Under the pieces are notes generated by a model that saw nothing but the letters and a program-made list of their open reading frames with translations, was not told where the DNA came from and searched no databases. A DNA stretch of 33,629 nt from Acidobacteriota bacterium (GTDB lineage Bacteria; Acidobacteriota; Terriglobia; Terriglobales; Acidobacteriaceae): NCBI GenBank assembly GCA_021779935.1, contig JAJXZT010000069.1:1-33629 (forward strand), given 5' to 3'. The translations under genes were made by a program, and so were the position numbers. This document shows, in pieces, positions 12,324-33,296 of this stretch (the first letter of the stretch is position 1; each line of letters begins with the position of its first letter).

Positions 12324-12479
12324 CTAGTCGCGATAGCCCGGTTTCACGGAGACGCGCTTGCGTCCCTTGGCCCGGCGACGCGATAGTACGGCCTGGCCGG
12401 CCTTCGTCTTCATACGGCTCCGGAAGCCGTGTACTTTCAAACGACGGCGCCGGTTGGGTTGAAATGTGCGCTTCGGCAT
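12324..12479 (-). CDS. rpmH: 50S ribosomal protein L34
   Basis: Small rRNA-binding protein of the large ribosomal subunit. The minus strand encodes 51 residues beginning [19 protein letters not shown] and continuing [20 protein letters not shown], the invariant L34 signature, then [17 protein letters not shown] lies about 11 nt before the ATG. It is first in the leftward operon rpmH-rnpA-yidD-yidC-jag, the standard arrangement beside bacterial dnaA. The gene is conventional apart from a slightly long C-terminus. Confidence 0.97.
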
Positions 12480-12527
12480 GGAAAAACTGCGCTCCTAACT
12501 GAACAAATGAGATGTCCGCAAACAGTA

Positions 12528-12557
12528 AGTATAAACGATGCCTTGCGAAACCGGCAA
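12528..12557 (-). promoter_or_regulatory. Putative rpmH promoter
   Basis: On the minus strand TTGCCG (12557-12552) and TATACT (12533-12528) are separated by 18 bp. This places the start near 12521, about 40 nt before the rpmH ATG. The -10 matches consensus at five of six positions. Confidence 0.5.
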
Positions 12558-12585
12558 TCCAGACCGGGAAAGTGAAAAATAGAAA

Positions 12586-12694
12586 GGAAAAAGTGGAAAG
12601 GAGTGAGCTAGTCAAGCTCGTTCTCCCGTGCGAGCTTAATCTTTGTTTGGTCTTCAAACTTTTTACTTTTCCCTTTTTACTTTCCACTTTTTCC
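12586..12694. repeat. 15-bp perfect inverted repeat, A/T-rich
   Basis: GGAAAAAGTGGAAAG at 12586-12600 is the exact reverse complement of CTTTCCACTTTTTCC at 12680-12694. Inside the right side, a CTTTTTACTTT unit appears twice in tandem (about 12657-12683), so the region is strongly purine/pyrimidine-biased. Confidence 0.6.
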
Positions 12695-12859
12695 AGTTCT
12701 CGCACACAGCTTTGCGCATTCCTTCCCGAACGCGAATAACTTTCTGCACAACTCGCGCGGCAGTTAGAAAGTCGGCACTTGACGAACGGACGAAAGAGGC
12801 GAATAAACGAGTTCACCTTGTTGCGAGGAATGTTTCCGACGTCTTGTTCGCGGTGGATT

Positions 12860-12893
12860 TTTTCGTGCTAGTATCCGTGAAGTCACACGAAAA
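12860..12893. promoter_or_regulatory. Inverted repeat over putative dnaA promoter
   Basis: TTTTCGTG (12860-12867) and CACGAAAA (12886-12893) are perfect 8-bp inverted repeats with an 18-bp centre. TGCTAGTAT, an extended -10-like sequence, lies at 12866-12874, so the repeat would straddle a dnaA transcription start near 12881. That is a plausible operator geometry, but the promoter has no good -35. Confidence 0.35.
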
Positions 12894-13084
12894 CCTGGTC
12901 TGCCCTACTCTTTGTGCAGACCGCGCTGAGGTTTCCGCGCGCAAAACGAAAGTCGTCTGCAAAGACATCGGTCTTCTAAGCAACGACAAGAATAAACAGA
13001 AAGAATAGTGCGGCACCCCCTTTCCGCGCTGGGCTGGCTACCGGGCGTTTGAGCCCGTTGCTCGCCGGAAGGTGACGAACCGCC

Positions 13085-14467
13085 TTGGGTTACTACATGT
13101 CTTCGTTTGCTGCTGCATCATCGAATCCGTGGGTCCGCATCCTTGATGCGCTGGAAAAGAAAATCAACCGCCACTCCTACGACACCTGGCTCAAGCCCAC
13201 TCGCTACAGCCACGTCGAGGGAGCCAAGCTCTTCATCCAGGTTCCCACCCCCGAGTTCCGCCAGATCGGCGAGAAGTACGCCGATCTTATTCAGGAAGCA
13301 ATTGAGAATCTCGGGATGGAATATCAGGATGTAGAGTTTGTAACGCCGGAAGATCCCGCGCAGACACCCATTCGCCACAACGGCGGACTCGCGGCCGTCA
13401 GCTCTCCTGCGGCCCGGCCGGCGCAGGCGCGCTTCGACTGGGACGGTGCGGCGCAACTCAACCCTCGCTACACGTTCGACGCTTTCGTTATTGGCAGCGG
13501 CAACCAGTTTGCCCACGCCGCGGCCCTGGCCGTCGCCGAGCGGCCCTCGAAGGCCTACAATCCGCTCTTCCTCTATGGCGGTGTGGGAATGGGCAAGACC
13601 CATCTCATGCAGGCCATCGGTCACGAGGTCAAGAAGCGCCAACCGGAAGCTTCTATCTGTTATGTCTCGACCGAGAAGTTCACCAATGAGATGATCAACT
13701 CGATCAAGCACGACAAGATGGTCAGCTTCCGTGACCGCTTCCGTGGCGTCGACGTGCTCCTGATCGACGACATCCAGTTCCTCGCTCAGAAAGAGCGCAC
13801 ACAGGAAGAGTTCTTCCACACTTTCAATGCGCTGCACGATTCGCTGAAGCAGATCGTCATTGCCAGCGACCGTCCTCCCAAGGAACTTGCTGAAATCGAG
13901 GACCGCTTACGCAGCCGGTTCGAGTGGGGATTGATTGCGGACATCCAGCCGCCCGACCTTGAAACCAAAATCGCCATCCTGGAGAAGAAGGCGGAGTCCG
14001 AGCATATCGTGCTGCCGAACGATGTTGGCCAGTTCATTGCCTCTAACATCCGTAGCAACGTTCGCGAGCTTGAGGGGGCGCTGATTCGTCTTTGTGCCTA
14101 TGCATCGCTTACCGGCGTCGAAATCAATCTCCCAATGGCGCAGCAGGTCCTGAAGAACATCATCGATCAACAGAGCCGTAAGGTGACCATAGAGGCCATC
14201 CAGAAGGCCGTCAGTGAACAGTTTGGCCTCCGGTTGCCGGAGATCAAGGCGAAGAACAACTCTCGCCCCATCGTCTTCCCGCGCCAAATCGCCATGTACC
14301 TGTCCAAGCATCTCACCGAGGCATCCCTGCCGGAGATTGGCCGTCAGTTCGGCGGGAAACACCACACCACGGTTCTTCACTCCATTGAGAAAATCGAAGA
14401 GCAGCGCAAGAATGACAAGGATTTAAACAGGATGTTGAACAAACTCACCGAGACTTTGAGCAGTTAA
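13085..14467 (+). CDS. dnaA: Chromosomal replication initiator DnaA
   Basis: AAA+ ATPase that binds DnaA boxes, melts the origin and loads the helicase. Domains: I at about residues 12-90 (WVRILDALEKKINRHSYDTW); a linker of about 35 residues; the AAA+ module with Walker A GGVGMGKTHL near 165 and Walker B LLIDDIQF near 226, plus sensor regions; and the domain IV helix-turn-helix with the signature GGKHHTTVLHSIEKIE near 422. The length of about 460 residues is normal. The TTG at 13085 is listed because AAGGTGA lies 9-12 nt upstream. ATG at 13097 gives a more usual N-terminus (MSSFAAASSNPW) but has no Shine-Dalgarno, so the start is open between the two. It diverges from rpmH and precedes dnaN. 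Confidence 0.97.
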   Translation: MGYYMSSFAAASSNPWVRILDALEKKINRHSYDTWLKPTRYSHVEGAKLFIQVPTPEFRQIGEKYADLIQEAIENLGMEYQDVEFVTPEDPAQTPIRHNGGLAAVSSPAARPAQARFDWDGAAQLNPRYTFDAFVIGSGNQFAHAAALAVAERPSKAYNPLFLYGGVGMGKTHLMQAIGHEVKKRQPEASICYVSTEKFTNEMINSIKHDKMVSFRDRFRGVDVLLIDDIQFLAQKERTQEEFFHTFNALHDSLKQIVIASDRPPKELAEIEDRLRSRFEWGLIADIQPPDLETKIAILEKKAESEHIVLPNDVGQFIASNIRSNVRELEGALIRLCAYASLTGVEINLPMAQQVLKNIIDQQSRKVTIEAIQKAVSEQFGLRLPEIKAKNNSRPIVFPRQIAMYLSKHLTEASLPEIGRQFGGKHHTTVLHSIEKIEEQRKNDKDLNRMLNKLTETLSS

Positions 14468-14550
14468 ACTGCGGTTTCCGGTGAGATTTCCACGTTCCGC
14501 CGAAGTTTTCCGAGCGGAAAAAACGGTATCCTTGTGGATGCAGTGGTAAG

Positions 14551-14591
14551 ACTGGGGAGGAATCAAAAAGATACTCCCCGTCTTCCCCAGT
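14551..14591. repeat. Hairpin within the dnaA-dnaN gap
   Basis: ACTGGGGA (14551-14558) pairs with TCCCCAGT (14584-14591). An alternative inner pairing of GGGGAG with CTCCCC (14554-14559/14574-14579) is possible. No T-run follows on either strand, so termination of dnaA is not certain. It separates the DnaA-box-like groups. Confidence 0.4.
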
Positions 14592-14720
14592 GGGTGACGA
14601 TGAGCCAGGCGGATTTCCAGCGCTTAGAATTCATTCCAGCCAGTTTTGAAGCGGTTTTCCCTTTGATTTCCACTTTTCCAGAGGACCTACTGTTACTACT
14701 AGTTTTTATTGCTTTTATTT

Positions 14721-14729
14721 TGATATAAG
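14721..14729 (+). promoter_or_regulatory. Putative dnaN extended -10 promoter
   Basis: TGATATAAG is a TGn extended -10 (TATAAG, five of six). It lies at the right end of the AT-rich tract of the putative origin, about 130 nt before dnaN. No clear -35 is seen. Confidence 0.4.
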
Positions 14730-14860
14730 GACAAGTCAAAGACAGTGTTAGGTTTTAGCTGTCTTCAAGGGATAATAGAGGCGGTCCCTGCCGCGGTTTG
14801 AGGCGGGGTAACGTGCCGGGGGCAAATATGGCAGAGGCAGGAATCGTACAAGGAACGACC

Positions 14861-15973
14861 ATGGAGATTACGATCAGCAAGTTTGATCTTCTCAAGGAAC
14901 TCACAGCCACGCAGGGCGTAGTCGAGCGCAAGACGACGATTCCAATTCTTTCCAATTTTCTCTTTGAAGCAGCCGACGGCGTCCTCACCATCACTGCGAC
15001 CGATCTCGACCTGAGCCTGCGTACCTCGTGCGATGCCATCGTCAAGAAAGATGGCTCCTGCACCATCCCCGCCCGCAAACTTTACGATTATGTGAAACTG
15101 CTCGGCGACGGTGATATCTCCATCAAGTTGCTGGAGAACCATTGGGTGCAGATCCGCGCCGGTCGCTCGAATACCAAGATGGTCGGTATGGCCCGCTCGA
15201 ATTTCCCCAGCGTGCCCACATTTCCCGCCACCGGCGCCGTCAAGATCCCCGCCGCCGTTCTCAAGATGCTTATCAGCAAGACCATCTTCGCCATTTCAAA
15301 TGAAGAGTCACGTTACACGCTCAATGGCGCACTGATGGTCCTGAAGCCGGAATCGATCACCATGGTCGCCACCGACGGTCACCGCCTGGCGCATATCGTC
15401 AAGGAAGGCGCCAGCTTCGATGTCAGCGGCGAAATGAAGACGCTGGTTCCCAAGAAGGCGATGGCCGAGCTTTCCTCGCTGCTCAACAATGCCGACATCG
15501 AATTTGTCGAGTTCGCCAAGGATGAGTCGACGCTCTTCTTCCGTATCGGCAGCCGTCTGCTGACCTCGCGCCAGCTTACCGGCCAGTTCCCGAACTACGA
15601 GGCTGTGTTGCCCAAGGAGAACACGCGCATTGTCCCCGTGCGTTGCGCCGACCTCCAGGCGGCCATCCAGCGCGTCGCGCAGTTTGCCGACGAGCGCTCG
15701 GGCGCCATCCGCATTCGCCTCGAAAAGAACGAGATGAAAATCTCCTCGTCTTCCACCGAGACCGGCGAATCCGAAGACTCAATTGAAACCGAGAACACCG
15801 GCGAACCGATGACCATCGGATTCAACTCGGCCTACTTGCTCGACTTCCTGAAGGCTGCGGAAACCGAAGGCGTCCGCCTCGAGTTCAAGGACGCCCAATC
15901 CGCCGGCCAGATGCGTCCCGAAGGCGACGAGGAGTACAAGTACCGTTATGTTGTTATGCCGATGAGGATTTGA
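14861..15973 (+). CDS. dnaN: DNA polymerase III beta subunit (sliding clamp)
   Basis: Ring-forming processivity clamp of the replicative polymerase. The 370-residue protein starts MEITISKFDLLKELTATQGV, with VERKTTIPILSNFLFEA and TDLDLSLRTSC in domain 1. It has the typical middle domain (ALMVLKPESITMVATDGHRL) and the C-terminal VVMPMRI that contributes to the partner-binding cleft. ATG 14861 is chosen over an in-frame ATG at 14798 because AAGGA lies 7 nt upstream and the clamp fold starts there. An acidic insertion is visible in domain 3 (SSSTETGESEDSIETENTGE). It follows the putative origin and ends at a Rho-independent terminator 21 bp on. Confidence 0.97.
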   Translation: MEITISKFDLLKELTATQGVVERKTTIPILSNFLFEAADGVLTITATDLDLSLRTSCDAIVKKDGSCTIPARKLYDYVKLLGDGDISIKLLENHWVQIRAGRSNTKMVGMARSNFPSVPTFPATGAVKIPAAVLKMLISKTIFAISNEESRYTLNGALMVLKPESITMVATDGHRLAHIVKEGASFDVSGEMKTLVPKKAMAELSSLLNNADIEFVEFAKDESTLFFRIGSRLLTSRQLTGQFPNYEAVLPKENTRIVPVRCADLQAAIQRVAQFADERSGAIRIRLEKNEMKISSSSTETGESEDSIETENTGEPMTIGFNSAYLLDFLKAAETEGVRLEFKDAQSAGQMRPEGDEEYKYRYVVMPMRI

Positions 15974-30626: not shown

Positions 30627-33296
30627 ATGGCAGACGAAACTAACAATCCGCAACTTCCTCTCGGTGGCGACGGACAAGGTCCGGGCGCCGCCAATGTGCA
30701 ACCCGTCAATATCGAAGACGAGATGCGGCGGTCGTATCTCGACTATTCGATGTCGGTGATCATCGGCCGTGCATTGCCCGACGTTCGCGACGGACTCAAG
30801 CCCGTGCATCGTCGCATTCTCTACGCGATGCAGGACATGAACCTGATGCACAACCGCAAGCACATGAAGTGCGCCGGTGTCGTCGGCGAGTGTTTGAAAA
30901 AATACCATCCTCACGGCGACAGCGCGGTGTACGACGCGATGGTCCGATTGGCGCAGGATTTCTCGCTACGCTATCCATTGGTGGATGGGCAGGGGAACTT
31001 CGGCTCGGTCGATGGCGATCCTCCGGCGGCTTACCGTTACACGGAAGCGCGCATGACGGCGCTGGCCGAAGAGATGCTGGCCGACATCGACAAGGACACT
31101 GTCGATTTCGTTCCCAACTTCGACGATCAGACGGTTGAGCCTTCGGTGTTGCCGACGAAATTTCCGAACCTGCTTGTCAACGGATCGAATGGAATCGCCG
31201 TCGGCATGGCGACGAATATTCCCCCGCACAACATGACGGAAATTCTCGACGCGTGCATCATGCTGGTGAACAAGCCCAGCACCACGCTGGAAGAAGTCAT
31301 GACGGTTGTGCAAGGGCCGGACTTCCCGACAGGCGCGTTCATCTACGGACGCAAGGGAATCATCGATGCTTATCGCCATGGACGCGGTCGCTTTATCATG
31401 CGCGCCAAGGCTGCCATCGAACACCTGACGAAAGAGAAAGACGCGATCATTGTTACGGAAATTCCGTACCAGGTGAACAAAGCGCGGCTCATCGAACGCA
31501 TCGCGGATCTCGTCAACGAGAAAACGATCGACGACATCTCGGATATTCGCGACGAATCCGATCGCGATGGCATGCGCATCGTTATCGAAATGAAGCGCGG
31601 AGCCGAACCGCAAATCGTTCTCAACCAGCTCTACAAACACACGTCGATGCAGGAGAGCTTCAGCATGATCTTCCTGGCCGTGGTCAACGGTCAGCCGAAA
31701 GAGATGGGGCTGGTGCAGGCGATCCAGCACTTTGTCGATCACCGTGTCGATGTGGTGCGCCGCCGCACGGCGTACCTGCTGAGCAAGGCTCGCGAGCGCG
31801 AACATGTGTTAGAGGGTTACCAGCTCGCGCTCGATCACATCGACAATGTCATCACCATCATCCGCGGTAGCACCAATCGCGCAGAGGCCCGTGAAAACCT
31901 TGTCGCTTACTTCGGCGGACGCAAGATCACGATCAACGTCACTGGCAAGCCGCCGGAGATAAATCCGGAAAAGCCGTTTTCAACGCGGCAGGCCGACGCG
32001 ATTCTCGAACTGCAACTGCATCGGCTCACACGTCTTTCCATCGACGAGATCGTCAGCGAGTTGAAGGAAATTCGGGACCGCATCACCGAGTACGAAGCGA
32101 TCCTCGGCAACGACAAGAAGCTGCGCGGCGTGATCACCGACGAACTGAAGCAGATCCGGAAAGATTATGGCGACGAGCGGCGGACGATCATCCAGGACGA
32201 AGCCAAAGAGATCGAACTCGAAGACCTGATTGCCGACGAGCAGATGGCGGTCACGGTTTCGCACGGCGGATATCTGAAGCGGACGGCGATTTCCACTTAT
32301 CGCCAGCAGCGCCGCGGCGGCACCGGACGCACCGGCATGAAGACGCGCGATGAGGATTTCGTCGAACATCTGATTGTCGCTTCGACACACAACTACATCC
32401 TGATCTTCACCAACATCGGGCGCGTCTACTGGCTGAAAGTCTACGAAATTCCAGATGTTGGTGCGGCGGGCAAAGGCAAACACATCAGCAACCTCGTCTC
32501 GCTGCAACCGGGCGAAACGGTGCGCGCCTTCCTCAACGTGCGCGATCTGGAAGAAGAAGGTAAATGCATTTTCTTTGCCACGCGCCACGGCACGGTGAAG
32601 AAGACTGCACTCAAGGATTTCTGTAACGTGATGTCGCGCGGCATTATCGCAATTGGCATCGAGAAGAACGACGAACTGGTCACGGCACAAATCACCGACG
32701 GCCAGCAGATCATCTTCCTCGCCTCGCACGAAGGCATGGCGATCCGCTTCGACGAAGAAGACGTCCGTTCGATGGGACGCCCGGCATTCGGCGTGCGCGG
32801 CATGAACCTTGCCCCGAAAGATTACATCGTTGGAATGGCCGTCACTCCAAAGGCGGGCGATGCGACGATGGAAAGCGAGAGCGGGCCGAAGAAGTCCGCC
32901 AAGACGAACGGCAAGAAGAAGGCCGAGGGTGAAGTGGAAGAAGCTCCGCTGCCGAACCTGATTCTTACCGTCACCGAGAACGGCTACGGCAAACGCACTC
33001 CTGTCGGCGAATACCGCCTCACCGGCCGCGGCGGAAAGGGCATCATCAACGTCAAGACGACGGAACGAAACGGCAAAGTAGTCGGCATCCTGCTGGTCAG
33101 CGAAGAGTCGGAAGCGATGCTGATTTCGCAATACGGCAAGATCATCCGCATGGGCACCGACAACATCCGTGAGGCGGGACGCGCTACGCAAGGCGTCCGC
33201 CTGCTGTCACTGGAAGGTGGAGACAAAGTCGCCGCCGCCGTTGTCATCCCCGATGATGAAAAGAACGGCAACGACGAACCGACGTTGCTGCAATAA
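30627..33296 (+). CDS. gyrA: DNA gyrase subunit A
   Basis: DNA-cleaving subunit of gyrase. About 889 residues. The N-terminal breakage-reunion domain has [20 protein letters not shown], the quinolone-resistance region [20 protein letters not shown] (Ser and Asp at the two key positions, the drug-sensitive type), and the active-site Tyr in [10 protein letters not shown]. The C-terminal DNA-wrapping beta-pinwheel follows, with the GyrA box QRRGGTG, where Thr replaces the Lys of the usual QRRGGKG. A Lys-rich insertion ([18 protein letters not shown]) separates two pinwheel blades near residues 752-772. ATG 30627 follows a long structured leader. The gene is isolated from gyrB by 10 kb. It ends at a 13-bp-stem terminator. 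Confidence 0.97.

Follow-up and report, generated by a model that had tools for sequence, protein, structure and literature searches.

Where does this acidobacterial chromosome begin to replicate, and which DNA signals would its initiator read in order to open the duplex? The window considered here is the whole stretch of DNA that was analysed (33,629 nt, one contig of a 4.49-Mb draft genome). It holds dnaA and dnaN, separated by a gap of 393 bp (14468–14860). The initial annotation placed a replication origin in this gap, with a basal unwinding system (BUS) made of tandem DnaA boxes and DnaA-trios. Our analysis of the sequence points the same way: 14485–14730 is very probably the chromosomal origin, and a module of DnaA boxes plus trios at 14665–14730 would serve its unwinding. 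Four lines of evidence uphold this placement, namely the anatomy of the element, its conservation in relatives, the lack of a counterpart in the rpmH–dnaA gap and a turn of the GC skew in one complete relative (G017).

The element between dnaA and dnaN

The features of the region are as follows (positions in the window).

13085–14467, forward strand: dnaA, with the Pfam domains DnaA_N, Bac_DnaA and Bac_DnaA_C; start uncertain, TTG at 13085 listed
14485–14493, forward strand: distal DnaA-box-like GATTTCCAC near the dnaA stop, read directly
14533–14541, reverse strand: DnaA-box-like GCATCCACA with two mismatches to TTATCCACA, from the box scan
14666–14674, forward strand: upstream box of the tandem pair, ATTTCCACT, with the conserved core TTTCCAC, from direct reading and alignment
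14674–14682, forward strand: downstream box of the tandem pair, TTTTCCAGA, with two mismatches to TTATCCACA and one to TTTTCCACA
14683–14686, forward strand: 4-nt spacer GGAC, read directly
14687–14701, forward strand: five putative DnaA-trios CTA CTG TTA CTA CTA, together CTACTGTTACTACTA
14702–14730, forward strand: AT-rich tract with TTTGATATAAG at 14719–14729, from direct reading and alignment
14861–15973, forward strand: dnaN, sliding clamp, from the open reading frame, Pfam and gene order

Tandem boxes, a 4-nt spacer containing G and C, five trios and an AT-rich tract had all been described by the annotation, and each can be read directly in the letters. Their arrangement is unique in the genome. 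A box-box-spacer-trio pattern, composed after the window had been seen, gave a single match at up to three mismatches in 4.49 Mb, this one with none, and the reversed control gave no match. Within the window, CTACTGTTACTACTA at up to three mismatches was found once where 0.08 matches are expected. Furthermore, a tandem-box matrix that holds no trio information, and whose training loci included the window itself, ranks 14665 at the top of the window with a score of 27.8 vs 16.4 for the runner-up.

The register of the boxes requires a correction. The annotation read them as contiguous at 14665–14682; the letters are there, but in the canonical 9-mer register the pair is ATTTCCACT and TTTTCCAGA, 8 bp apart at 14666–14674 and 14674–14682, with base 14674 common to both. 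This register is clearer in relatives, for instance in L050 (GTTTTCCACATTTCCGCA). The boxes of the window are weak, as the annotation had remarked in calling them deviant: the upstream one has three mismatches to TTATCCACA by hand count, and the whole dnaA–dnaN gap contains no 9-mer within one mismatch of it. GATTTCCAC occurs at 14665–14673, again at 14485–14493, where the annotation had noticed the repeat, and once more in the window at 32288. The sequence that separates the dnaA-proximal boxes from the tandem pair contains an inverted repeat able to form a hairpin, at 14540–14610 (folding z −2.69 vs shuffles).

The strand that DnaA would bind reads 3′-GAT GAC AAT GAT GAT-5′ in the trios, so that all five units are A-centred. 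In the BUS survey by Pelliciari et al. 2021 (PMC8287927), the system is defined by a box with at most two mismatches, a partner with at most four, a distance of 0–16 bp to the array and at least three trios of the form 3′-NAN-5′. The window element has each of these properties, and the boxes beside its array are tandem and co-oriented, as in most BUS. The DnaA of the window aligns to the B. subtilis DnaA structure 8btg (E 1.8e-146), and the trio-binding pocket expected of a BUS initiator (Asn187, Arg202, Glu228 and others) is found in this alignment: Glu183, Asn187, Ile190, Ile193, Arg202, Lys222, Glu223 and Glu228 of B. subtilis are kept, while Asn196 is replaced by Asp. Judged from its sequence, 14665–14730 is thus a canonical BUS, ordinary and well-formed.

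Comparison with known origins is in keeping with this. The window element and B. subtilis incC (DnaA-boxes 6/7 and DnaA-trios) share tandem co-oriented boxes downstream of dnaA, a 4-nt spacer, trios of the 3′-GAT-5′ type, an AT-rich tract and the pocket residues of DnaA; incC differs in having six trios where the window has five. In addition, the boxes of the window, unlike those of incC, are nearer to TTTTCCAC than to TTATCCACA; in the canonical register they share one base. Trios also stand beside boxes in Helicobacter pylori oriC2, whose third trio, 3′-GAC-5′, is comparable to the CTG of the window; in that report (PMC8235120) the middle T of the top strand is called strictly conserved, whereas G is frequent in the relatives of the window.

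The remark of the annotation that such elements are known chiefly from Firmicutes and their relatives no longer holds. In PMC8287927, 85% of the species surveyed (1755 of 2070) have a potential BUS, and the in vitro tests were made with purified DnaA from S. aureus, L. monocytogenes, E. faecalis, H. pylori, S. elongatus and D. radiodurans; a BUS outside Firmicutes is therefore not new. The per-species tables of this survey may include acidobacteria.

By analogy with B. subtilis, ATP-DnaA would bind the tandem boxes through its domain IV. The AAA+ domains would then polymerise off the boxes along the bottom strand of 14687–14701, at about one protomer per trio, and capture bases 1 and 2 of every trio, the choice of strand being taken from B. 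subtilis. This polymerisation would open the AT-rich tract and lead to helicase loading, two steps that are likewise modelled on B. subtilis. Extra DnaA may be supplied by the boxes near the dnaA stop.

Conservation and the middle base of the trio

Relatives were drawn from the same family, order and class and anchored on dnaN, the motif itself playing no part in the choice. After removal of two partial clamp paralogues (L337 and L338), 272 loci, five of them with an uncertain dnaN start, gave 259 distinct upstream regions. By DnaN, the 80 closest titled records all come from Acidobacteriota, and almost every one is a metagenome-assembled genome, at about 74–84%; several are labelled Terriglobia, and Candidatus Korobacter versatilis is among the nearest at 80%.

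The annotation had made conservation of boxes, spacer and trio phase a touchstone of its reading, and all three are conserved. The tandem-box matrix scores above 10 in 219 of the 259 regions; the corresponding numbers are 41 for the reverse strand and 3 for shuffled sequence. The scored loci include the training loci of the matrix, and reverse matches are expected wherever an origin holds reverse boxes. When offsets of 3–7 between box and array were tried, the best was 4 in 106 regions and 5 in 102, which makes 208 of 219; other offsets account for 11. Over 95 distinct ungapped spacer-4 loci, the window included, the information content is 1.32 bits in the boxes, 0.61 in the spacer, 1.40 in the trios and 0.87 in 14702–14730; because the loci were picked on box score and on the first and third trio positions, the figures for boxes and trios are inflated, but the AT-rich tract is unaffected. 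In the same loci the flanks of 14665–14730 drop to 0.28 and 0.19 bits. On this alignment, 14665–14730 is an island of conservation. The dnaA-proximal boxes have their equivalents too: over 81 syntenic spacer-4 loci there are 59 forward matches 15–19 nt past the dnaA stop and 50 reverse matches 65–69 nt past it (matches, so that one locus may count twice).

No tandem-box match above 10 was found in 40 of the 259 regions, including five loci of genus g38. In this genus (L072, L075, L076, L078 and L079) the dnaN-upstream stretches examined, only 201 bp long in L079, hold no element of boxes and trios, and its origin may be at another place.

Structural and genetic work on B. subtilis gives the trio its meaning. 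According to PMC10721633, DnaA captures each trio through its first two bases, the second of which is an adenine whose amine is contacted by Asn187; at this middle position C replaces A in vitro and in vivo better than G or T, which impair. The discussion of that paper leaves room for homologues that recognise various sequences, and a 2026 review keeps the motif as NAN (PMC13220808).

We examined the middle base in the relatives with the register set from trio positions 1 and 3 only. The 208 loci with offset 4 or 5 were reduced to 171 with a clear register and these to 102 distinct arrays, in which the top-strand middle is T 352 times, G 151 times, A 5 times and C twice (A, C, T and G in the bound strand). 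Without the register filter the counts are T 473, G 202, C 18 and A 17 (142 distinct arrays, 219 loci). In these sequences the middle of the putative trio is thus nearly always A or C in the bound strand, the natural counterpart of the rule obtained with B. subtilis mutants. Six loci with a clear register have another middle base, and a T-centred third unit looks real in L280 and L286.

Parsimony on a dnaN protein tree (186 tips reduced to 173 with full dnaN; FastTree, midpoint root, no support values used) gives 55 changes T>G, 16 G>T, 2 T>C and 2 T>A in the top strand. Thus 71 of the 75 inferred changes at the middle are exchanges between A and C in the bound strand. Elsewhere, position 1 shows mostly C/T swaps and position 3 A/G swaps, counts which are biased by the choice of register, as that of the middle base is not. 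From mutation alone, an excess of the transition T>C would be expected. Evolution appears to keep an amino-bearing base there over many inferred changes, which matches the B. subtilis structure and mutants.

Could the restriction to A and C be a by-product of GC-rich composition or of the way the register was chosen? The number of C-centred units does rise weakly with GC (Spearman 0.26). However, GC pressure would yield T>C as readily as T>G, for which 2 and 55 changes are inferred, and the register does not use the middle base at all. In shuffled sequence taken through the same procedure, the top-strand middle is C in 20% of units and A in 21%, vs 2.5% and 2.4% observed. We consider this explanation very improbable.

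The A-or-C middle has a practical side. At least one C-centred trio is present in 124 of 207 origins, so that units obtained in B. subtilis by mutagenesis (PMC10721633) occur naturally in the relatives of the window. Sixty of the 207 arrays have no three consecutive A-centred trios in register, a departure from the survey definition of PMC8287927; the NAN rule would miss them in that register for this very reason. With every phase starting up to 16 nt from the second box allowed, an approximation of the published rule, 47 of 207 still lack three NAN trios. Search rules restricted to NAN leave C-centred trios uncounted; this may be why some origins have been reported to lack a BUS.

Promoter, GC skew and linkage to dnaN

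A different function for the conserved island deserves attention. It could be mainly the promoter of dnaN, autoregulated through the DnaA boxes, with TTTGATATAAG as an extended −10 element and the trios as mere upstream promoter sequence. TTTGATATAAG and the related TTTGRTATA resemble the extended −10 consensus. The distance is fixed: in 66 of 103 spacer-4 loci TTTGRTATA begins 17 nt past the final trio. It is also at this motif that the island ends. Nevertheless, boxes and trios persist without it: the 45 nt that follow the array contain TTTGRTATA in only 6 of 102 spacer-5 loci. Neither the period of three, nor the spacer of 4 or 5, nor the A/C-only middle base is explained by promoter function, and scans of 14400–14900 for intrinsic terminators and for the sigma-70 consensus found nothing. 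That the island is mainly a promoter seems extremely improbable to us. A possible dnaN promoter at TTTGATATAAG, inside the predicted unwinding region, is another matter, for promoter and origin roles can coexist in the same island.

Returning to the origin, its position relative to the two genes is instructive. In 136 of the 259 regions dnaA precedes dnaN by no more than 1.5 kb; a few of the dnaN-upstream regions end at contig edges, and dnaA stands 1.9 kb (L060) or 2.6 kb (L061) upstream in two cases. The element is present without dnaA within 1.5 kb in 85 of 102 spacer-5 regions and in 14 spacer-4 regions, which suggests that the origin accompanies dnaN rather than dnaA.

Genomes in which the two genes are far apart bear on this point. 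In G017 (complete, 3.69 Mb), dnaN (1,492,484–1,493,602) and dnaA (from 1,907,724) are 415 kb apart. Forty 20-kb samples, covering 0.80 of the 3.69 Mb, show negative GC skew in 13 of 16 samples up to dnaN and positive skew in 18 of 24 beyond; the exceptions include the sample at 1.40 Mb, which is positive, and the stretch of 1.84–1.94 Mb around dnaA, which is negative. In 1-kb steps over 1.48–1.52 Mb the skew turns at 1,493,001–1,494,000, at dnaN and the element, which begins about 290 bp beyond the dnaN start and less than 1 kb from the turn. For boxes and trios combined, the dnaN element is the best match of the 0.80 Mb scanned; for boxes alone, another site outscores it (22.6 vs 21.4).

Other genomes are less clear-cut. 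G299, with dnaA 1.1 Mb away, has a skew of −0.137 before dnaN and of +0.068 and +0.153 after it, with a local minimum 7 kb before dnaN and positive skew on both sides of dnaA. G346 has no skew turn at dnaN and changes from plus to minus at dnaA. In G031 the sign changes at dnaA–dnaN, but this genome is a mosaic. The window itself lacks the skew minimum that the annotation had looked to at the gap: the skew is −0.024 to the left and −0.068 to the right, negative on both sides and more so on the right, a trend opposite in sign to the one expected of an origin. Our location of the origin is therefore drawn from conservation, synteny, one clean skew case (G017) and one partial case (G299).

The last candidate, a functional origin in the rpmH–dnaA gap (12390–13084) with the dnaA–dnaN element as secondary, was rejected and keeps next to no credence: this gap holds the second-best tandem-box score of the window (16.4, at 12679–12696) and six 9-mers within two mismatches of TTTTCCACA vs five in the dnaA–dnaN gap, but no trios follow the pair at 12679, which is part of T-rich sequence that recurs inverted, as an A-rich copy, around 12570–12605, the scan upstream of dnaA in 34 relatives scored above 10 in three (L032, L041 and L055) and met a trio array in none, and the element travels with dnaN, not with dnaA. 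The site named by the annotation as an example of one that could overturn its reading thus has no conserved counterpart of the element in these 34 relatives. The T-rich and A-rich inverted copies at 12570–12700 mimic DnaA boxes.

A candidate change of the trio code in genus g48

The initiator residue that would read the middle base is almost as constant as the base itself. Asn is present at position 187 in 208 of 211 readable DnaA copies of the relatives (loci, not deduplicated). One genus of the same class as the window, g48 in family f7, departs from both.

None of its 16 loci has a CTA-type array behind the boxes. Instead, 15 of them (L073, L464, L469, L472–L476 and L478–L484) carry, at the same place, tandem boxes, a 5-nt spacer and the five-unit array CAT-CAC-AAC-AAC-AAG or a close variant, such as CAT-CAT-CAC-AAC-AAG in L473 or TAT as the first unit in L481; the array was not found in L485. 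The 2.00 bits of this array follow by construction, the rows having been chosen by that string. The 16 loci represent part of the genus, dnaA having been found in 35 of its 36 genomes. Read at spacer 5, the middle base of the bound strand would be T in every unit, and A-centred trios would be absent; T at this place impairs the Asn187-bearing DnaA of B. subtilis. Read at spacer 4 or 6, the middle bases are mixed. We prefer spacer 5 because it results in five regular units and is used by relatives.

The DnaA of g48 has Ile at position 187 in 13 of 13 readable loci, L485 included, and in the readable copies a His four residues after Arg202, where other f7 loci have Arg. The other genera of f7 kept Asn187 in 12 of 12 readable loci; several show A/C-centred arrays (e.g. 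L460, L466, L467 and L471), and others have no clear element. Ile187 and the putative T-centred array probably represent one evolutionary event.

We tentatively propose, with somewhat less than even confidence, that the Terriglobia trio is an amine code (A or C, read by Asn187) and that the coupled change in g48 swaps this single-strand code. If so, g48 would be a natural case of coupled change of initiator and origin. Alternatively, its array (bound strand TTGTTGTTGT) might presumably be a single-stranded DNA motif of the E. coli kind. As far as the open-access literature shows, the A-or-C rule for the middle base of natural trios and the case in which Ile187 goes with a putative T-centred array are new: in the literature searched, neither natural trios centred on C or T nor any trios of Acidobacteriota are reported.

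Variation of the pocket is also seen outside g48. L087 (G056), a single locus, has Gln at position 187 of DnaA and a different sequence behind the boxes. L424 with L074 (G043) and L426 with L071 (G041) are C-centred in three and four of five units, respectively, and have Ser at the Arg202 position of DnaA.
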